33,606 bases of DNA from a virus. This document shows positions 4,207 to 30,283 of this stretch, in pieces. The notes beneath the pieces were generated by a model. The model ran no database searches. It was given only the letters and a program-made list of their open reading frames with translations, and was not told the DNA's origin. How positions within the stretch are numbered: the first letter of the stretch is position 1; each line of letters starts with the position of its first letter. The stretch spans positions 1 through 33,606 of IMG/VR virus record IMGVR_UViG_3300042090_003226. The stretch is one strand, 5' to 3'. Made by a program: the position numbers and the translations under genes.

Positions 4207-4683
4207 CTACCTCCCTGCAGTTCTATAATCACGAACTGCTGTGCTTAGAATTTCTTCCGCTGTCCATCCACGCCTATGACGCGATTCTACAGTCGGTATC
4301 TTTAATGACAATTTCTTAGCCCATTCACGGAGAGTAAGTTCCTCCCCTTCAAACTTCAATAGAACTCGGTCATAACGCGGAGACCGATTGTTCGCTTGTT
4401 CCTTTCTTGTTGCCCACCTACAGTTGCTCGGCTCATAGTTCCCATTGTTGTCATTTCTTTCAAGAGTCAACCCGGCCTTGCATTCTCCCATATCTTTCAA
4501 AAAGTTAGGGAATGAATGCCGCCAACGTTCGCACACAACGATCCCGCGACCTCCATAGCGATCATAAGACTTTTGGGATGAGGAATAGCAACGGAGATTC
4601 ATTGATGCCCACGCCATGTAAGTCGGAGTCCATTTTCCACCAACCGTATGACCATGCTTTGTATTCCCATGTTTGTTTGTCAT
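4207..4683 (-). CDS. HNH homing endonuclease, free-standing
   Basis: The 158-residue protein has the phage HNH pattern: YMAWASMNLRCYSSSQKSYDRYGGRGIVVCERW, then FLKDMGECKAGLTLERNDNNGNYEPSNCRWATRKEQANN, which contains the metal-binding and catalytic region, and a C-terminal NUMOD-like helical segment (ELTLREWAKKLSLKIPTVESRHRRGW). Such enzymes nick or cleave related genomes lacking the gene and so spread it. It sits between sheath and tube with 44 bases upstream and its TAG two bases before the presumed tube start. Its coding sequence fills nearly the whole insert, so there is little room for a group I intron. Its codon use looks more AT-rich than the flanking structural genes. Confidence 0.85.
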   Translation of the reverse strand: MTNKHGNTKHGHTVGGKWTPTYMAWASMNLRCYSSSQKSYDRYGGRGIVVCERWRHSFPNFLKDMGECKAGLTLERNDNNGNYEPSNCRWATRKEQANNRSPRYDRVLLKFEGEELTLREWAKKLSLKIPTVESRHRRGWTAEEILSTAVRDYRTAGR

Positions 4684-16683: not shown

Positions 16684-17367
16684 TTACTTAACTGCCATTT
16701 CTACCTGCAAATTTGCAGCCCTGCGGAATCCTTCAGGCAGATCGTCGATCTCTATGAATGGCCATCCCTGCGAGGTTCCGGCGTGCCATCTGTGAGCGTT
16801 CTGAGAGTGCATCGTAGCCACGAAGTTGTCCTTGCCATCGGAGCAGACGATCGTCTCGTGGTCCCTGGCATGACGCATGAACAGAGAATCTTCGGCGAAT
16901 GAACAGCCTTCGTCCCAAGGGTGAGCTAGAGCATATTCCCTCTTGTAAATCAGCGTGGCTCCCCAAGCTGTACCGTGGTAGTAGCTGGCCTTACCGTGAA
17001 CGAAGTCATACCAGAGTGCCTGGCCGTAGCCTCCAAGGTTCTTCGTCGGATTGGCAAGCATCAACTCAACCTGGTCGGTCACTCTGTGCGGTCCAGACCA
17101 GTCATCGGCGTCGAAATGAACGATGTACTCGCCGCTAGCTTCCCTAGCACCAAGGTTACGCTTTTGGCTGAGGTTCTGGGCTTCGAAGTTCAGATAAAGG
17201 CAATTCGGTACGTCTCGCACCGTTCCCCCGATGAACTGCTCGCCGTCGTCCACAACTATAAGCTCTTTTCCCCCAGTCCAATCTTGGTTGAGATAGCAAT
17301 CAATCGCTGTCTGGACTAGGTGCCGCATATTTCTGTGGCACAAGAGGACGCTGACCTTAGGCATCAT
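16684..17367 (-). CDS. Glycosyltransferase family 2
   Basis: A 227-residue GT-A enzyme: MMPKVSVLLCHRNMRHLVQ at the N-terminus, ELIVVDDGEQ, LSQKRNLGAREASGEYIVHFDADDW with the DxD-type metal/nucleotide-sugar site, then YKREYALAHPWDEGCSFAEDSLF. It probably transfers a sugar to a virion protein, host surface glycan or modified DNA base; the acceptor is unknown. The start is ATG 17367, overlapping the stop of a 51-residue upstream gene. A copy of the 14-bp dyad lies near the 3' end. It lies between a head protein gene and the terminase, an unusual site for a glycosyltransferase. Confidence 0.85.
   Translation of the reverse strand: MMPKVSVLLCHRNMRHLVQTAIDCYLNQDWTGGKELIVVDDGEQFIGGTVRDVPNCLYLNFEAQNLSQKRNLGAREASGEYIVHFDADDWSGPHRVTDQVELMLANPTKNLGGYGQALWYDFVHGKASYYHGTAWGATLIYKREYALAHPWDEGCSFAEDSLFMRHARDHETIVCSDGKDNFVATMHSQNAHRWHAGTSQGWPFIEIDDLPEGFRRAANLQVEMAVK
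16705..16718. repeat. 14-bp dyad motif, copy 2 (perfect)
   Basis: CTGCAAATTTGCAG, a perfect palindrome, near the 3' end of the GT2 gene and just upstream of the small terminase start. Confidence 0.75.
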
Positions 17368-20556: not shown

Positions 20557-20721
20557 TTAAGACTTAACAGAGAGTTCCCGGTGAAGTTCCGCAACCCAAT
20601 CCATCTGCCATATTTCCAACGAGATAGGATCGAAGTGATGACGCTCCGGACTCTCCAGAACCGCATTGCACTTCTGAATCTCCGAGGCACAGTGGAGCAC
20701 GTTCTCAAGAGATGGCTTCAA
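20557..20721 (-). CDS. Small hypothetical protein (TTG start)
   Basis: A 54-residue frame from TTG 20721, which overlaps the TGA (20720-20718) ending the split gene upstream. It reads MKPSLENVLHCASEIQKC, then LEIWQMDWVAELHREL. It ends four bases before the FkbM fusion. The sequence is helical and charged with no recognised family. Its coupling to the upstream stop is evidence that the upstream reading frame was once translated through to that stop. Confidence 0.6.
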   Translation of the reverse strand: MKPSLENVLHCASEIQKCNAVLESPERHHFDPISLEIWQMDWVAELHRELSVKS

Positions 20722-20809
20722 GCGTCCTCCCGGCCGGCCAAAACACTCGCGTGGATCGACACCAGCAAGCGGTCGTCCTTGAACAAGTAGGCCCACTCTC
20801 CAAACAGAA

Positions 20810-20831
20810 GGGAACTATATATTTAACTCCC
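20810..20831. repeat. Cassette 1 left TIR
   Basis: Reads GGGAACTATATA, then T, then TTAACTCCC on the plus strand. Its last base is the last base of the cassette gene's TAG stop. Confidence 0.9.
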
Positions 20832-21124
20832 TAAGCTGTTTCTTTCTTTGAGCTATCTGGCACGAGCGCGACCCTCTTGAAAAGATCGGGATGGGTTTGC
20901 GCCAGAACGCCTTCCTGAGCGGGGAGCAGAGCCAGCACGTCCTCAAGATTCAGGCATTCTTTCAGGTTGGGGCACGGATCGTTCGGCTTTGTCACGGCGA
21001 TCTTGCCGTTGCAGTCGTCGTTTCCCGCCGTTGCGTCGTAGAGAATACCTATGACCGGGCCACCGTAGCCAAAATGCACAACTTTGTCTCCGTTCTTTGC
21101 TTCGCGTCCATTTGCGTAGTGCAT
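20831..21124 (-). CDS. Cassette 1 cargo: small SH3-like phage protein of unknown function
   Basis: A 97-residue protein: MHYANGREAKNGDKVVHFGYGGPVIGILYDATAGNDDCNG, then IAVTKPNDPCPNLKECLNLEDVLALL. The N-terminal YANGREAK-GDKVV pattern recurs in small phage proteins and looks like a small beta-barrel (KOW/SH3-like) fold, but no function is known to me. A GAGGAAT ribosome binding site precedes the ATG, which lies 22 bp inside the right inverted repeat. The TAG touches the left repeat. It is the sole cargo of cassette 1; by analogy with the methyltransferase cargos, a role against host defence is possible but speculative. Confidence 0.8.
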   Translation of the reverse strand: MHYANGREAKNGDKVVHFGYGGPVIGILYDATAGNDDCNGKIAVTKPNDPCPNLKECLNLEDVLALLPAQEGVLAQTHPDLFKRVALVPDSSKKETA

Positions 21125-21146
21125 ATTCCTCGCTTTCTTCCCCGAA

Positions 21147-21168
21147 GGGAGTTAACTATATAGTTCCC
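21147..21168. repeat. Cassette 1 right TIR
   Basis: Reads GGGAGTTAA, then C, then TATATAGTTCCC on the plus strand, the inverted copy of the left repeat. The direct repeat AAACAGAA follows at 21169-21176. Confidence 0.9.
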
Positions 21169-21478: not shown

Positions 21479-21751
21479 TCAGTCAGTAATGGATACAGCT
21501 AAACGACAACGCTCACGCAAAGATACGTCAGTTTCATATGTCTTGCCATCAAGAAGGCTAATAGTTCCGAGAGGGTCTCCATCGGCAAGAACTTTACGCT
21601 CCAAACCCCAAATAGAACAGAGACCATCTAAGGTCTGAAACATAGCTCCGAATCGTATTACTTCTTTCCAATTGACTACGCGCCATGGATATAACTTCCT
21701 GCAAATTTGCAGTCCTTCCCAAGCCGCCGTTTTTCTCTGCTGGCTTCTCAT
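21479..21751 (-). CDS. Hypothetical protein
   Basis: A 90-residue protein: MRSQQRKTAAWEGLQICRK at the N-terminus, then VVNWKEVIRFGAMFQTLDGL and a C-terminal LDGKTYETDVSLRERCRLAVS. The ATG at 21751 follows the TGA of the basic-protein gene by two bases; an in-frame ATG at 21772 overlaps that gene and is less likely. A perfect copy of the 14-bp dyad encodes Leu-Gln-Ile-Cys near the N-terminus. No family is recognised. Confidence 0.6.
   Translation of the reverse strand: MRSQQRKTAAWEGLQICRKLYPWRVVNWKEVIRFGAMFQTLDGLCSIWGLERKVLADGDPLGTISLLDGKTYETDVSLRERCRLAVSITD
21699..21712. repeat. 14-bp dyad motif, copy 3 (perfect)
   Basis: CTGCAAATTTGCAG within the start of the 90-residue gene, in a different reading frame from copies 2 and 5. 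Confidence 0.75.
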
Positions 21752-23553: not shown

Positions 23554-23722
23554 GTCTCACGTCCTTATCACGATCATTCACGTTCAACAGCGCTCTCCGG
23601 CGAAGCAGGAGATCAGCCCCTTCGCGGATCATCGCGCAGGCTTTCTTTCCCTCCGCATCCTGCATATCTTTCTTTTCTTCGGCAGCCCAATTCGCCAACG
23701 CTGCAAGTTCCTGATTTGTCAT
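23534..23722 (-). CDS. Small helical hypothetical protein
   Basis: A 62-residue frame: MTNQELAALANWAAEEKKDM, then AMIREGADLLLRRRALLN. The pattern resembles short phage proteins that pair a helical core with a charged tail. The ATG overlaps the preceding TGA (ATGA) and the end overlaps the glycosyltransferase-sulfotransferase start. No function is assigned. Confidence 0.6.
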   Translation of the reverse strand: MTNQELAALANWAAEEKKDMQDAEGKKACAMIREGADLLLRRRALLNVNDRDKDVRHEPAPS

Positions 23723-24177
23723 GTTCTCGCTGCTTGACAGGCGGCCAGGAACGCCGCGTGGGGATGACGCGAGGATTCAAAAGATCGCGCGGGATAGCTC
23801 AAGTCTAGGTTCTCAGGCTGGCGCGGAGGTAAAAGTTTAGGCACCGGGCGGTGTCCTGACCTGAATTGCTCTTTCACCACAGCCCAGGAAACGCGGAACA
23901 TGAGCACAATCCCGGCGCGTGGGTTGCCTATCCTGACGTGACGCGCCCAACCGACGGTGACCAACAATGCCGCGAACGAAGGCGAAGTTCGGTGAGGGGG
24001 AACAGGGGGGAGGGGTGCGGACTTTTCGGGTAGGAGATAAACCGGGAGGCGATTGTTGGCCATTCTAGCTAGACGGAAATAGGGCTGAGATTCAAGTCTT
24101 GGTTGAACCACCAGCTTCACCGAAGCCGGAAAGTAATTGTCTTGCGGTACTCTCCTAAGTAGCATAATCACACGCAC
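23719..24177 (-). CDS. Pro/Arg-rich hypothetical protein
   Basis: A 152-residue frame starting at GTG 24177 or ATG 24165. It is rich in Pro, Arg and Ser (LLPEKSAPLPPVPPHRTSPS; HRPVPKLLPPRQPENL), with a hydrophobic middle (VGWARHVRIGNPRAGIVLMF). Its TGA overlaps the next start by ATGA, which is the best evidence that it is translated. No Shine-Dalgarno is clear. Cassette 2 lies 11 bp upstream of its start and probably separates it from its original leader. Confidence 0.45.
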   Translation of the reverse strand: MRVIMLLRRVPQDNYFPASVKLVVQPRLESQPYFRLARMANNRLPVYLLPEKSAPLPPVPPHRTSPSFAALLVTVGWARHVRIGNPRAGIVLMFRVSWAVVKEQFRSGHRPVPKLLPPRQPENLDLSYPARSFESSRHPHAAFLAACQAART

Positions 24178-24195
24178 TTGTACAGGGAAAAATAA

Positions 24196-24217
24196 GGGAA
24201 TTATATAGTTAACTCCC
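24196..24217. repeat. Cassette 2 left TIR
   Basis: Reads GGGAATTATATA, then G, then TTAACTCCC on the plus strand. On the minus strand it encodes the end of the methyltransferase (RELTI then TAA). Confidence 0.9.
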
Positions 24218-24851
24218 TAACGCCAATATGCTGAATGATTTGCAACCCGATAAACTCCGCGTATGCCGGCGGGATCGCTTCGCGCGTTTCGTGGCGACTC
24301 ATCCACTCGACACCCATTTCGTTCCGCCAGAGCTTTTCTGCGTCTTGGCGACCAAACTCCGCATAGATGCGCTCACGGCTCTTTGCGCTATGAGGGTTCA
24401 AGACGGGCTCCTTAGCAAAGCAGTCTGGAACGAGAGCGAACAGGCAAGAAGACTCGAAAAGACGGTGCCGATGTATCCTCAATCCGAACATAGTGCCGCA
24501 AAGCACGAGAGGATGGCGCAACGGGGCACCTACAACGTTTTCAATGACCCACGGTGCTCCGTTGGCTTCCAATCGCTCCCTGATGGCTTCTATTAGCATC
24601 GGCTGAGGGGTAGCCAAATGGCGCATTGCTGCCGAATAGGACTGGCACGGCGGACTTGCCCAAATGAAATCGTAACCGTCCATCGGGAACGTCATCGCAT
24701 CGTCTTGAAAAAAGGCGTCTCCGCAATATCGTGGCTGCGGTTTGATGTCAACTCCTGTGACGTGAAACCCAGCACGCTGCAAGCCTTTCGTGGCTCCGCC
24801 AGCACAGCAGAACAAGTCCAAAGCTCTCGGCTTGTGATCCATCGGCGTCAT
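24201..24851 (-). CDS. Cassette 2 cargo: DNA cytosine C5-methyltransferase
   Basis: A 216-residue compact C5 methyltransferase. Motif I is LDLFCCAGGATKGLQRAGF, motif IV is ASPPCQSYS with the catalytic Cys (about residue 70), motif VI is WVIENVVGAPL, motif VIII is RIHRHRLFESS, and the C-terminal EAIPPAYAEFIG is motif X. The target recognition region is very short, as in phage solo enzymes that protect DNA from restriction. GAGGTGA precedes ATG 24851, 19 bp inside the right repeat, so the cassette supplies its own translation start. It has no cognate nuclease nearby. Confidence 0.92.
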   Translation of the reverse strand: MTPMDHKPRALDLFCCAGGATKGLQRAGFHVTGVDIKPQPRYCGDAFFQDDAMTFPMDGYDFIWASPPCQSYSAAMRHLATPQPMLIEAIRERLEANGAPWVIENVVGAPLRHPLVLCGTMFGLRIHRHRLFESSCLFALVPDCFAKEPVLNPHSAKSRERIYAEFGRQDAEKLWRNEMGVEWMSRHETREAIPPAYAEFIGLQIIQHIGVRELTI

Positions 24852-24870
24852 TCGGTATCACCTCACAAAA

Positions 24871-24892
24871 GGGAGTTAAGTATATAGTTCCC
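24871..24892. repeat. Cassette 2 right TIR
   Basis: Reads GGGAGTTAA, then G, then TATATAGTTCCC on the plus strand. The direct repeat AAAAATAA follows at 24893-24900. Confidence 0.9.
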
Positions 24893-24917
24893 AAAAATAA
24901 AATGCCGCTACCATGGC

Positions 24918-25094
24918 TCAGTTCGACTGCAAACTTGCAGACTGCCGGAGAGCCAGATTCGGCCTGTACCGACTGTTGTTATCCCTCGCGCAAGCTCGGC
25001 AGGTATGCTTGTTCCCGACTCGATTCCACTCTCCCGGAGAAAATGCGTTGATGTTCTTCGGCTTCTTGCAGTAGCTACACCGTTTTTCTTCCAT
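24918..25094 (-). CDS. Small zinc-finger protein
   Basis: A 58-residue protein with CSYCKKPKNINAFSPGEW, then KHTCRACARDNNSRYR: two C-x2-C pairs 22 residues apart, a zinc finger like those found in small HNH-related or DNA-binding phage proteins, but without the His-Asn-His core. The ATG lies inside the end of the upstream 53-residue gene. The stop is 25 bp from cassette 2's right direct repeat. A variant of the 14-bp dyad lies near its 3' end. Confidence 0.7.
   Translation of the reverse strand: MEEKRCSYCKKPKNINAFSPGEWNRVGNKHTCRACARDNNSRYRPNLALRQSASLQSN
24927..24940. repeat. 14-bp dyad motif, copy 4 (one-base variant)
   Basis: CTGCAAACTTGCAG, one base from the perfect dyad, at the 3' end of the 58-residue gene. 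Confidence 0.6.
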
Positions 25095-26132: not shown

Positions 26133-26159
26133 TGTATTACTGGTATTGCGCCTTGTCAA
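26131..26159 (-). promoter_or_regulatory. Sigma70-like promoter with GTATTRC repeats
   Basis: On the minus strand TTGACA (26159-26154) is a consensus -35. A 17-bp spacer leads to TACAGT (26136-26131), or a 14-bp spacer to TAATAC. The TTGACA overlaps the methyltransferase stop codon. Plus-strand direct repeats GTATTAC (26134-26140) and GTATTGC (26143-26149), 9 bp apart, fit an Arc/CopG-type operator. It would drive the ribbon-helix-helix gene and genes after it. Confidence 0.5.
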
Positions 26160-27112
26160 CTACCTTTTTGGTCCTTGAACTCCGTGAACTCCTTGCGGAT
26201 GCTTTCGGGATTGCCTTTGAAAAAACACATAACGTACTGGTGCGCCGATCCCGCTTTGCGACCACGCGAGAATTGGCGGTTGATACGCAGCGGTAGGGAA
26301 CCAATTGGCGTGAGTAGGACGAAATCATTGTAGTGTCTAAAACCAGCTTCTAACATCGCGCTTTCCGTCGGCACACGCATATCCCGCAGGAAACCTTCAT
26401 CATCTCGGATGTTTCCGACTACCACGACAGCGAATCGTTGCTCTTTCAGGCGCAGCGCAGCCTTCCGCATGATGGTCTGATATTTCATGCAGAACTCAGT
26501 CCAGTTATCTAGTGTGCTCAGGTCGGCGGATAGATCGCTATATCGTTCAAGATTCCAATACGGCGGACAAGTGAAAAGAAGGTCGTATCCATCACCGCAC
26601 AATTCCTCAACCTTCGCGGCATCTCCGCAAATCCAATGCGGCTTAGGATCGCAGGGAATCGCGAGAGACTGCTTGACGTTCGCTTCTACCTGTTCACGAC
26701 GCAGTTCTATACCGTTGTACTGATAGCCGAGACGGGCAGCCACGATGCCCCGCACACTTCCACCCGCAAATGGGTCTAGGATGCCGAGCGTCAGCTTCTC
26801 AGGCATGAACCATGAGTAGATAAGTTCACAGAGCACAGGGTCAAAGATGCTCGTGCCCTGCGTATCCGTGGAACCACGAGTGCCTTCCTTGACGCGATAG
26901 TAATCGAACGATGCAGCCGCTCCCGAATAGGTCAGTTCACCGTTGCGACCAATCTCGCCTTCAATACCCAACGCGATCCAGTCTCTCTTTCGATCCTGCC
27001 ACCGTCCTGTTTTTTGATCGAAAGTAGTGAATGGCGGTTCAATGAACCTCTGGCACATTGCCCCGCCCGGTAGTTTGTCGTCCACTTGATGCCCGAATAG
27101 ATCAGTGTTCAC
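26156..27112 (-). CDS. DNA N4/N6 amino-methyltransferase
   Basis: A 318-residue amino-methyltransferase. LTLGILDPFAGGSVRGIVAA is motif I (about residues 106-125), and DLLFTCPPYWNLERYSD contains the catalytic (D/T)-C-P-P-Y motif IV (about 180-196). GNIRDDEGFLRDM and a C-terminal GRKAGSAHQYVMCFFKGNP follow. The TCPPYW form resembles enzymes of the ParB-associated/phage class of N6A or N4C methylases; which base is methylated is not determinable. It starts at ATG 27112 and its TGA overlaps the following promoter. It lies outside the TIR cassettes. Confidence 0.85.
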   Translation of the reverse strand: MNTDLFGHQVDDKLPGGAMCQRFIEPPFTTFDQKTGRWQDRKRDWIALGIEGEIGRNGELTYSGAAASFDYYRVKEGTRGSTDTQGTSIFDPVLCELIYSWFMPEKLTLGILDPFAGGSVRGIVAARLGYQYNGIELRREQVEANVKQSLAIPCDPKPHWICGDAAKVEELCGDGYDLLFTCPPYWNLERYSDLSADLSTLDNWTEFCMKYQTIMRKAALRLKEQRFAVVVVGNIRDDEGFLRDMRVPTESAMLEAGFRHYNDFVLLTPIGSLPLRINRQFSRGRKAGSAHQYVMCFFKGNPESIRKEFTEFKDQKGS

Positions 27113-27518: not shown

Positions 27519-28159
27519 TGCGGCCTGAATTGCTCCCAGCATTGACGTACTGTCACGCTCTGGTCTCCGCGCACGGCGAATACAGACTCCATCCATTCCG
27601 AGACGACAAATTCTACGAAGTCCGAAAGCGAACCCTTCTCATCCTTCAACCGCTTGAACGCTTCATACCCTTCCAGCACGTACTTCCCCTGGCTCTCTGC
27701 AAATTTGCAGTTGAGTTTGAACTCTTCTTCGATGTGCTGGGCTGGCAGGGCTTGCTTGAGTACCTTGACCGCTTTCTGCTTTGGGAGTTTCAGGGCTTCC
27801 AGGACTTCCGGCTTTGCTAGTTCCACGGGAGAGATGTTCCTGGCTTTGCTGGCCCAATCCGCTGTCTCTGGGGGCATAAGACGCAGCGAAGAATCAGGCA
27901 CCTTTGCCTCTTTTAGAGCTTTGTAGCGTCCCTTAATCGCAAAGCATAGCCGATGCGATACCGGAGCCTTGACCTGTGCCCAATCGTCAAAACTGGAATA
28001 GCCCATCTCCAGGAAGAGTTCGTCGCGTTCTACCTCAACGAGAATCATGGCAAGGTCAACCCAATTCCGACACGATGACTCGAATGTTTCCAGATACTCA
28101 GTACAGAACGCCGCTCGTGCTGCACGATCCTCAACTATCACGAGATTCTTTTTTCTCAA
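27515..28159 (-). CDS. Hypothetical helical protein
   Basis: A 214-residue protein from TTG 28159, which overlaps the TGA of an upstream remnant frame. It starts MRKKNLVIVEDRAARAAF and has YSSFDDWAQVKAPVSHRLCF, the G-Y-x-S-F-D-D-W pattern of phage proteins with a helical DNA-binding module. A long helical part follows (VLEALKLPKQKAVKVLKQAL). It could be a regulator or replication accessory. The 14-bp dyad at 27697-27710 encodes Asn-Cys-Lys-Phe in this gene. No secure family. Confidence 0.6.
   Translation of the reverse strand: MRKKNLVIVEDRAARAAFCTEYLETFESSCRNWVDLAMILVEVERDELFLEMGYSSFDDWAQVKAPVSHRLCFAIKGRYKALKEAKVPDSSLRLMPPETADWASKARNISPVELAKPEVLEALKLPKQKAVKVLKQALPAQHIEEEFKLNCKFAESQGKYVLEGYEAFKRLKDEKGSLSDFVEFVVSEWMESVFAVRGDQSVTVRQCWEQFRPQ
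27697..27710. repeat. 14-bp dyad motif, copy 5 (perfect)
   Basis: CTGCAAATTTGCAG inside the 214-residue gene. Confidence 0.75.
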
Positions 28160-28244: not shown

Positions 28245-28252
28245 AAACTGTG

Positions 28253-28274
28253 GGGACTTATATACTTGAGTCCC
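28253..28274. repeat. Cassette 3 left TIR
   Basis: Reads GGGACTTATATA, then C, then TTGAGTCCC on the plus strand, the most diverged copy. The changes create perfect outer pairing GGGACT/AGTCCC. Confidence 0.85.
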
Positions 28275-28287
28275 TTTTGTTAAGCGT

Positions 28288-29283
28288 TCATGCAAAAAGT
28301 CTTTCCTGCGCTGGCCGTAAGCAGTGTGGACTGAAATAAACACGCTCCTTTGAGGAGTTCTCGCGGGCTTGGTTCTCGCCCTGAGAACCATAGCCGCCCC
28401 GCGCCTTCCACTCCACCGTATCCCATGAATCGGGCATATCGTGTTCGCCCTCGTATCCGCAGAGCGCAATCCTGATTCTCGGGTCATCTCCCTGTGCGAT
28501 TGCCCACTCCCGTACCTCGTTAGCTACTGTAAGGCTGTCTGAGCTATATAGCGCGTCTGTGCGACCGTCAAGGTAAGGAGGATCGAGGAAGACTCCAGTG
28601 GTTCCGAGCTTGACCGTTGGCGTAGGGCCGCAGACTCTAGACCAATCGCCGCAGCACACCCGGACTCGGCGCAAGCGTTCGGCTAGTTCGTTCATGTACT
28701 GAAACAGGAACTCTCGCGTTCCCAAGGTGCGGGAGCTTTCCTCTTCTAAGCAAAGGGCACCGCCCTTGCCCGCGTCCCCAAGGTGCGGGCGCTTACGGTG
28801 TACGCCCGTGCCCGCGTCCCCAAGGTGCGGGCGTTGACGGTGTACGCCCTTGCCCGCGTCCCCAAGGTGCGGGAGTTGCACCGAACACCATCCCGAGCCA
28901 ATCCAAATACATTGTCCCCATACCCACCAGCCTGCAATCTTTGCATCGTAAAACTCCGGGTCTGTTTTCATGTTTTCGCGGAACTCTTCTTGTGAGACGA
29001 GCCACAAATGCCTTGCGTGTTGATCTGCCTCGTTTACCGGCCAATCGGCGGCATCGGCCACTGCATCGGGATCGTTTTGCAACGCACGCCAGAAGTTAGC
29101 CACCATGCAGTCGAGGTCATTTACCGTCTCGATACCTGCCTCTGTTGGCCGTCCGAGCAATACCGCGCCACTTCCAAAGAACGGCTCGACGTAATTCTGC
29201 ACGTGGCCGAAACGTTCCCAAACAAGAGGGGTAACCTTCGATTTTCCACCAAACCATGGAAACGGTGCTCTCAAATCAGTCAT
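28288..29283 (-). CDS. Cassette 3 cargo: Dam-like (D12 class) DNA adenine methyltransferase
   Basis: A 331-residue N6-adenine methyltransferase. The N-terminal APFPWFGGKSKVTPLVWERF is motif X-like, NYVEPFFGSGAVLL is motif I (about residues 31-44), and GVFLDPPYLDGRTDALY holds the catalytic DPPY motif IV (about 232-248). Between them (about 140-185) is an insertion with HLGDAGKGVHR-type repeats. GGAG precedes ATG 29283, 10 bp inside the right TIR. The stop is 13 bp before the left TIR. The target site is not predictable. It probably protects phage DNA from restriction. Confidence 0.9.
   Translation of the reverse strand: MTDLRAPFPWFGGKSKVTPLVWERFGHVQNYVEPFFGSGAVLLGRPTEAGIETVNDLDCMVANFWRALQNDPDAVADAADWPVNEADQHARHLWLVSQEEFRENMKTDPEFYDAKIAGWWVWGQCIWIGSGWCSVQLPHLGDAGKGVHRQRPHLGDAGTGVHRKRPHLGDAGKGGALCLEEESSRTLGTREFLFQYMNELAERLRRVRVCCGDWSRVCGPTPTVKLGTTGVFLDPPYLDGRTDALYSSDSLTVANEVREWAIAQGDDPRIRIALCGYEGEHDMPDSWDTVEWKARGGYGSQGENQARENSSKERVYFSPHCLRPAQERLFA
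28721..28873. repeat. 42-bp-period repeat inside the Dam gene
   Basis: The 13-mer CCCAAGGTGCGGG occurs at 28721, 28777, 28819 and 28861. The last three are 42 bp apart and in frame, encoding a 14-residue unit (HLGDAG-GVHR-RP). The first is 56 bp away and read in a different frame (SRTLGTRE). The array is more GC-rich than its surroundings. Similar in-frame repeats in Dam-like genes are, to my recollection, seen in other phages and metagenomes. Confidence 0.85.
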
Positions 29284-29707
29284 TTCGCTCCAGTGGAGTT
29301 AAGTATATAATTCCCAAACTTTGAGAGGCGAACGAAACGACGTGAGCGCAGTTCTGGAAGTTAAGGCCCCACGCTCCGATCTTCGGCTTTGTGATTAAGT
29401 CTTTGATCTTCCCCGAAGCGAACGCGGTGAATTTTTCTTCTTTCTCTTCGTCCGAATCCGCTCCGCTCACTTGTACCGAGCCTTTGATGATCTCTTCCAG
29501 CAAGTCGCATTCGTCGTTCAGGTGGCCCCAGATCAAAGCGGAGTGGCCGTCATCGACCAAAGCGGAGGTTACGAGGTCAGATTGGAAATCGAACAAGAAC
29601 GACGGCATAAACTTTGGAGCGAATCCGGAGTTGGTCCCGAGTTGCGTCTTTTCTTCGATGAAGTCTTTGTAACTGAGCGCCACTTTGTGCCCCGCTATTG
29701 TCGGCAT
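29276..29707 (-). pseudogene. SNF2-type phage helicase remnant, interrupted by cassette 3
   Basis: The N-terminal MPTIAGHKVALSYKDFIEE, then SGFAPKFMPSFLFDFQ, is typical of phage SNF2-like helicases. It jumps at about residue 50 straight to the C-terminal helicase domain: ALIWGHLNDECDLLEE, SVQVSGADSDEEKEEKF, LITKPKIGAWGLNFQNCAHV. Roughly 300 residues with Walker A and DEAD-type motifs are missing. The frame then enters cassette 3 after SFASQS and ends at 29276. Joined across the cassette it would continue SFEQYYQ, the expected motif, before stopping. The start is ATG 29707, overlapping the previous TGA (TGATG). Confidence 0.75.
29294..29315. repeat. Cassette 3 right TIR
   Basis: Reads TGGAGTTAA, then G, then TATATAATTCCC on the plus strand. 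AAACTTTG follows at 29316-29323. Confidence 0.87.
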
Positions 29708-29931
29708 CACAGTTTCCCTCGACACACTCCGCAGTTACCCACCGAAGCGTACCCGTGCGGACAGTCCGTTAAATTGATTGCCTGCGAAGGACCGTCAGAA
29801 GCCATCGAGCACGGACCCGCATGATTAAGTGGACGCTGGCAATAAGTCGTTATCATTCCATTGCTCCCATCTTTCGCGATGACGTTCCGACACAGAGCAT
29901 GAGTAGAAAAATCAAAAGGTATCCTCGTCAT
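29707..29931 (-). CDS. Small Cys-rich protein
   Basis: A 74-residue protein beginning MTRIPFDFSTHALCRNVIAK, with YCQRPLNHAGPCSM and the C-terminal DCPHGYASVGNCGVCRGKL. The paired Cys/His residues suggest one or two zinc sites. The ATG at 29931 overlaps the TGA of the HTH gene (ATGA), and its TGA overlaps the helicase remnant start. A longer in-frame version to 30027 is unlikely. Function unknown. Confidence 0.65.
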   Translation of the reverse strand: MTRIPFDFSTHALCRNVIAKDGSNGMITTYCQRPLNHAGPCSMASDGPSQAINLTDCPHGYASVGNCGVCRGKL

Positions 29932-30125: not shown

Positions 30126-30283
30126 TTTGATCTCGCTTTCTTCCGAAGATTTAAGATGTCTCCTACGTGTACCGGCTTCTTCTTCTCGATTTCCTTTGTC
30201 CACCATTCCTTGAGACTCCAGACCACCAGCAATCTTTCCTTCGGTCCCCAGATGTATTCCTTCTGCAAATTTGCAGTTTTCAG
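30122..30283 (-). CDS. Small Trp/Lys-rich protein, probable CTG start
   Basis: A 53-codon frame containing LQKEYIWGPKERLLVVWSLK, EWWTKEIEKKKPVHVGDIL and NLRKKARSK. It has no ATG, GTG or TTG at its 5' end except a TTG at 30268. A CTG at 30283 overlaps the TGA of the zinc primase-like gene (CTGA) and lies 7 bases after AAGGA, the best-placed ribosome binding site. The 3' end overlaps the HTH start by ATGA. The 14-bp dyad overlaps codons 4-8. No family is recognised. Confidence 0.5.
   Translation of the reverse strand: MKTANLQKEYIWGPKERLLVVWSLKEWWTKEIEKKKPVHVGDILNLRKKARSK
30263..30276. repeat. 14-bp dyad motif, copy 6 (perfect)
   Basis: CTGCAAATTTGCAG, a few bases after the end of the CHC2-type gene and within the start of the 53-residue frame. 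Confidence 0.75.

Follow-up and report, generated by a model that had tools for sequence, protein, structure and literature searches.

Mobile insertion cassettes (MICs), such as IS231-MIC231 (De Palmenaer 2004), are covered in the ISsaga paper (PMC3129680), and those that we found described were located on bacterial plasmids and chromosomes and belonged to other insertion sequence (IS) families. Members of the IS1595 family that carry passenger genes are termed 'transporter IS' (Siguier 2009, as cited in PMC3129680 and PMC12561309), and one member, ISApl4, has 8-bp A/T-rich duplications according to PMC12561309. The MIC class and the IS1595 parent family are therefore already known (PMC3129680), and we found no report of IS1595 or MIC cassettes in phages in the open-access literature searched.

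The window analyzed here, i.e., the whole 33,606-base virus record, carries the terminase, portal and other structural genes on its minus strand and holds six copies of one repeat, compared with 0 expected from shuffles. These copies pair into three cassettes, C1 (359 bp), C2 (697 bp) and C3 (1063 bp), whose ends are inverted repeats of 22-23 nt, mostly beginning GGGAA(C/T)TATATA and flanked on the outside by an 8-bp direct repeat. Given that these ends are common to elements with an IS1595 transposase, C1-C3 can be assigned to non-autonomous IS1595 mobile insertion cassettes; because they lack the IS1595 DDE transposase detected in 41 other elements, they are derivatives of IS1595 and not insertion sequences. 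No transposase was found anywhere in the window. We consider it highly probable that C2, like C1 and C3, is such a cassette, moved in trans and likely conferring an anti-restriction benefit. The cassettes resemble MICs in their IS ends, passenger gene, lack of a transposase and presumed activation by a cognate transposase, but differ from the described ones in their IS1595 affiliation, in their occurrence in phages, and in being mostly one compact gene with a stop often built into the end.

Direct reading of the sequence placed C2 at exactly 697 bp (24196-24892) between two 8-bp duplications, with the following features:

24188-24195: left copy of the C2 target-site duplication, AAAAATAA, exact
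24196-24218, plus strand: left terminal inverted repeat of C2, 23 nt, GGGAATTATATAGTTAACTCCCT, at the downstream end of the gene and encoding ELTI-stop on the minus strand
24201-24851, minus strand: C2 cargo, a phage-type C5 cytosine DNA methyltransferase of 216 aa (PF00145, 5.8e-6; phrog_363, 5.2e-33)
24870-24892, minus strand: right terminal inverted repeat of C2, 23 nt, AGGGAGTTAAGTATATAGTTCCC, upstream of the cargo gene
24893-24900: right copy of the C2 target-site duplication, AAAAATAA, exact

The preliminary description of this locus had reported a complete C5 methyltransferase within 697 bp, an exact flanking duplication, and the fusion of cargo and ends into one unit. The first was confirmed by sequence reading and by the PF00145 and phrog_363 matches, the second by AAAAATAA on both sides, and the third is supported by the stop codon in the repeat together with that duplication. 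C2 has the properties of a MIC: its ends are those of a known IS, and the methyltransferase ORF, as passenger gene, alone fills the cassette, with no transposase match inside. The ORF terminates in ...GVRELTI-TAA, and the repeat, said earlier to supply RELTI and the stop, contains the E, L, T and I codons and the stop, whereas the R codon straddles its edge. Similarly, the right repeat had been read as leader sequence; the ATG indeed lies 18 nt inward of it, but the probable ribosome site (GAGGTGAT) belongs to the cassette interior, outside the repeat.

The SAM motif, PCQ catalytic loop and ENV motif of C5 cytosine DNA methyltransferases are all present in the C2 enzyme, and the DLFC, GGA, PPCQ and IENV motifs are invariant between it and its relatives in the alignment. 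Judged from its sequence, C2 encodes a predicted C5 cytosine DNA methyltransferase with an intact core, in which only the last residues differ from relatives. None of its 36 relatives without adjacent repeats (37-79% identical) ends in RELTI, in agreement with the proposal, made before this check was run, that the ELTI ending is restricted to repeat-bounded copies. The gene would have been captured in such a way that the repeat replaced its last residues with ELTI and provided the stop. The nearest methyltransferases of cultured phages are <60% identical (best matches about 45%) and do not help in dating the C2 insertion, and no solved PDB structure related by sequence to the enzyme was matched.

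C2 is intergenic, lying 17 nt beyond the stop of a 58-codon ORF (24918-25094, minus strand). The ORF on its other side (23719-24177, 152 residues) has no Pfam or PHROG match and may be no real gene, so that the earlier placement in an intergenic site next to a 152-residue gene holds for the position between genes and is doubtful as to the neighbor. The insertion had also been called recent, for which the exact duplication provides the sole support; no empty C2 site was found. The neighboring 249-aa gene yielded one distant relative only and no uninterrupted site, a blastn comparison of the region with cultured phages gave as its sole match 99 bp of a DNA adenine methylase gene, which is not the C2 site, and the 58-aa neighbor had no match in L393 (L plus a number denotes a locus), the contig with the C1 empty site.

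We scanned viral contigs (IMG/VR) and bacterial and archaeal genomes (GTDB), all of the sequences compared being metagenomic assemblies, for the end motif and then paired the nearest repeats. At least about 98 distinct elements with C2-type ends, 222-2695 bp in length, were detected in viral and bacterial DNA, and 93 of the 98 had an exact 8-bp duplication among the matches listed. Among the nearest repeat pairs in the matches listed (n = 96), a perfect 8-bp duplication occurred in 73 and a 9-bp duplication in none, and the end motif read backwards returned no elements under the same scan and pairing. The duplications of the elements listed were 85% A/T, compared with 46% in the flanks. A transposase was encoded in at least 41 elements and absent from at least 57 (among the matches listed, 42 from the viral pattern scan, 7 from cellular genomes, 5 found via cargo homology and the window's 3). 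The transposases of the 41 elements are about 305 aa long and matched PF12762 (5.6e-42), PF12760 and the IS1595 model NF033547 (7.6e-56). One gammaproteobacterial MAG carried a 1457-bp transposase-bearing element at many sites with differing duplications, and IS1595 transposases were scarce in cultured phage records (3 matches, <60% identity). In two viral contigs (L009 and L036), the IS1595 transposase gene has a long antisense ORF of about 450 codons, which an automatic gene caller might annotate in its place.

The elements are like the IS1595 family in their transposase domain, GGG-starting ends, 8-bp A/T-rich duplications and cargo genes. In contrast to that family, the three elements of the window lack a transposase, and transposase-less copies were commoner than full ones at viral loci found by pattern (42 vs. 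24, among the matches listed). Like MITEs, the cassettes are short and non-autonomous, with inverted repeats and duplications; however, MITEs are non-coding, whereas most transposase-less elements here consist of one conserved ORF that typically fills 80-96% of the length and is under purifying selection where pairs are comparable (dN/dS 0.02-0.2). Mycobacteriophage mobile elements (MPME) are very small phage mobile elements with a small ORF, and the cassettes are similar to them by this description, not by sequence; we know of no methyltransferase cargo or IS1595 membership among MPME. MPME are mentioned in PMC3203893.

Movement is evident, from comparisons between loci, for both C1 and C3, which have empty target sites and cargo at other sites with other duplications. 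C1 occupies 20810-21168, with an exact duplication:

20802-20809: C1 target-site duplication, AAACAGAA
20810-20832, plus strand: left inverted repeat of C1, with its first base as the last letter of the cargo's TAG stop
20831-21124, minus strand: C1 cargo, a 97-aa protein with function unassigned, of a protein family present in at least 4 other cassettes
21146-21168, minus strand: right inverted repeat of C1
21169-21176: C1 target-site duplication, AAACAGAA
21169-21264, minus strand: 5' part of a small gene split by C1; the 3' part lies at about 20718-20809, and L393 has the gene uninterrupted

Over its full length, C1 shares 328 of 359 nt (91%) with an element on a second viral contig (L025), whose flanks are unrelated and whose duplication differs. 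Three further cassettes (L236, L121 and L144), with three other duplications, encode members of the C1 protein family, which is also found elsewhere without repeats. The empty site in L393 reads through at 75% protein identity, with a coding match spanning the junction and one-sided synteny. C3 occupies 28253-29315, with 7 of 8 duplication positions matching:

28245-28252: C3 target-site duplication, AAACTGTG, with one mismatch
28253-28275, plus strand: left inverted repeat of C3, a variant that recurs identically in a cassette from an acidobacterium (L390)
28288-29283, minus strand: C3 cargo, a D12/Dam-type N6-adenine methyltransferase of 331 aa (PF02086, 1.1e-9; phrog_56)
29293-29315, minus strand: right inverted repeat of C3
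29316-29323: C3 target-site duplication, AAACTTTG
29316-29725, minus strand: part of an SNF2-type phage helicase gene that C3 interrupts, its reading resuming as HSFEQYYQ at 28252

The C3 cargo and that of L253/L254, at another site, are 97-99% identical (dS about 0.06), and L264 has a related gene at a third site. Four helicases (L306, L307, L309 and L315) read through the C3 target, e.g., as FPSHSFEQYYQ in L306. Cargo was likewise shared at different sites by the pairs L012/L092 and L033/L097.

Several other features were observed around C3 and in the window. The helicase split by C3 (28214-29725) apparently misses its N-terminal ATPase core and stops shortly past the C3 site (HSFEQYYQSAVG*), which suggests that the gene is decaying beyond the insertion itself. 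The C3 methyltransferase holds a 42-bp in-frame tandem repeat (RTLGTRARAYTV units, 28705-28886), and its length differs among relatives (317 aa in L254, 331 aa in the window and 373 aa in L253), which suggests variation in repeat number. Another N4/N6 methyltransferase (PF01555), free of repeats, is encoded at 26156-27112, so the phage has at least three methyltransferase genes. The palindrome CTGCAAATTTGCAG is dispersed over the window in six copies, four of them perfect (948-961, 16705-16718, 21699-21712, 24927-24940, 27697-27710 and 30263-30276), compared with 0 expected, and these are possibly repressor operators scattered along the genome.

Full and transposase-less copies were found together in several places. 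In an Acidobacteriaceae MAG, a full IS1595 copy (L066) was accompanied by a 328-bp cassette that has an exact target-site duplication (AAAAGGAA) and whose end has the same sequence as the variant left end of C3. Two viral loci (L041 and L142) had both kinds of element. Such co-occurrence fits mobilization in trans without proving it. The cassettes could alternatively be internally deleted IS1595 remnants, which kept the passenger, lost the transposase and are now immobile; we regard this as very improbable. Larger elements (L035, L056 and L066) hold a transposase plus extra ORFs, from which transposase loss could yield cassettes, and an origin by deletion is possible. Immobility, however, is not supported, as members of the same cassette families lie at several sites, their ends intact and their duplications exact, indicating that copies moved after transposase loss.

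Even less credible is the proposal that the repeats act as regulatory sites, as a promoter/terminator or an operator, around 'morons', with genes swapped by homologous recombination between them. The repeat does contain a TATACT box (the -35 box of such a promoter would lie in the variable flank), a transcript leaving the gene could by inspection fold it into a hairpin, and the cargo is mostly oriented like its neighbors (13 of 16 cases with agreeing flanks, P = 0.02, based on a crude gene call). Nevertheless, the exact 8-bp duplications that adjoin the repeats and vary by site, insertions inside genes, and transposases within elements having the same ends all contradict this proposal. The duplications and the empty sites refute regulatory repeats as the cause of movement; the repeats may still have a regulatory side role. 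Spread via homing endonucleases or as integron gene cassettes can practically be dismissed: single-gene units with short leaders superficially resemble gene cassettes, and a free-standing HNH endonuclease gene, unrelated to the cassettes, lies among the structural genes of the window (4207-4683; phrog_3377, 3.3e-48), but no endonuclease appeared in the Pfam matches of cargo, and the cassettes have the same inverted repeat at both ends and short A/T-rich targets duplicated upon insertion.

Under the preferred reading, that of IS1595 cassettes mobilized in trans, each unit would comprise one phage gene and the ribosome-binding site that serves it, set between ~22-bp ends recognized by an IS1595-type DDE transposase. 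This enzyme would come from a full IS1595 copy, carried by the host, by a prophage or by a co-infecting phage; it would insert the cassette at an 8-bp A/T-rich target and thereby duplicate the target, and the phage would likely gain DNA shielded from host restriction. Such tight capture may have arisen through a deletion within a larger passenger-bearing IS or through capture between two ends.

The fusion of gene and end is real in C2, but not specific to it. A typical cassette ORF has its own ribosome site (e.g., TTGGAGG) ahead of a start just inside one repeat, and it stops within or just ahead of the second. In 29 of the 57 transposase-less elements among the matches listed, the repeat supplies the stop, in three registers: (R)EL(T/S)I-stop, GS-stop, and TA plus the first G of the repeat. 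With half of these elements alike, the fusion appears to be a recurrent design. ELTI/ELSI or related endings were present in the repeat-bounded C2, L026, L033, L050 and L030, and the transposase of L036 ends in RELSI, so that the design is common to a full copy. A repeat-borne stop explains the odd C-termini (ELTI, ELSI, GS and DSSI) that recur in phage annotations.

DNA-modification genes were carried by 14 of the 49 transposase-less elements found by pattern alone (among the matches listed), including N4/N6, phage Dam, D12 and C5 methyltransferases and two Mom-type modification proteins; L011 was counted through its alignment to C2, without a Pfam assignment. No DNA-modification family was present in the best 25 of 38 families from 75 ORFs flanking pattern-found loci (cargo vs. 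flanking ORFs, Fisher P = 6e-7 at 0 controls; P = 0.001 supposing 5 overlooked). Other cassette proteins had no Pfam match where scanned (L012, 6336-6893; L092, 2244-2801; L033, 4926-5384; L097, 2897-3355; L018; L015), with strong purifying selection in L012/L092 and L033/L097, where pairs exist. Given the bias of cassette cargo to DNA modification, these proteins are candidates for counter-defence or DNA-modification functions.

What appears to be new, in that we did not find it in the open-access literature, is their presence in phages as a widespread pool of compact one-gene units, rich in modification genes and often with the stop in the end. Small accessory genes that jump between unrelated phages are usually explained by illegitimate or homologous recombination. 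Dozens of like cassettes in other phages and in bacteria, often with DNA-modification genes, point to an apparent way for phages to trade such genes. We suggest, with some reservation, that phages may share a dispersed pool of one-gene cassettes, enriched in modification genes, with standard IS1595 ends that provide an exit stop, shuffled by the transposases of hosts or other phages. If true, this pool, rich in anti-restriction genes, would be a transposon-based counterpart of integron cassettes. Single phage genes, often for DNA modification, have here a defined transposition route with visible scars (8-bp duplications and empty sites), which makes such gene movement traceable and testable.
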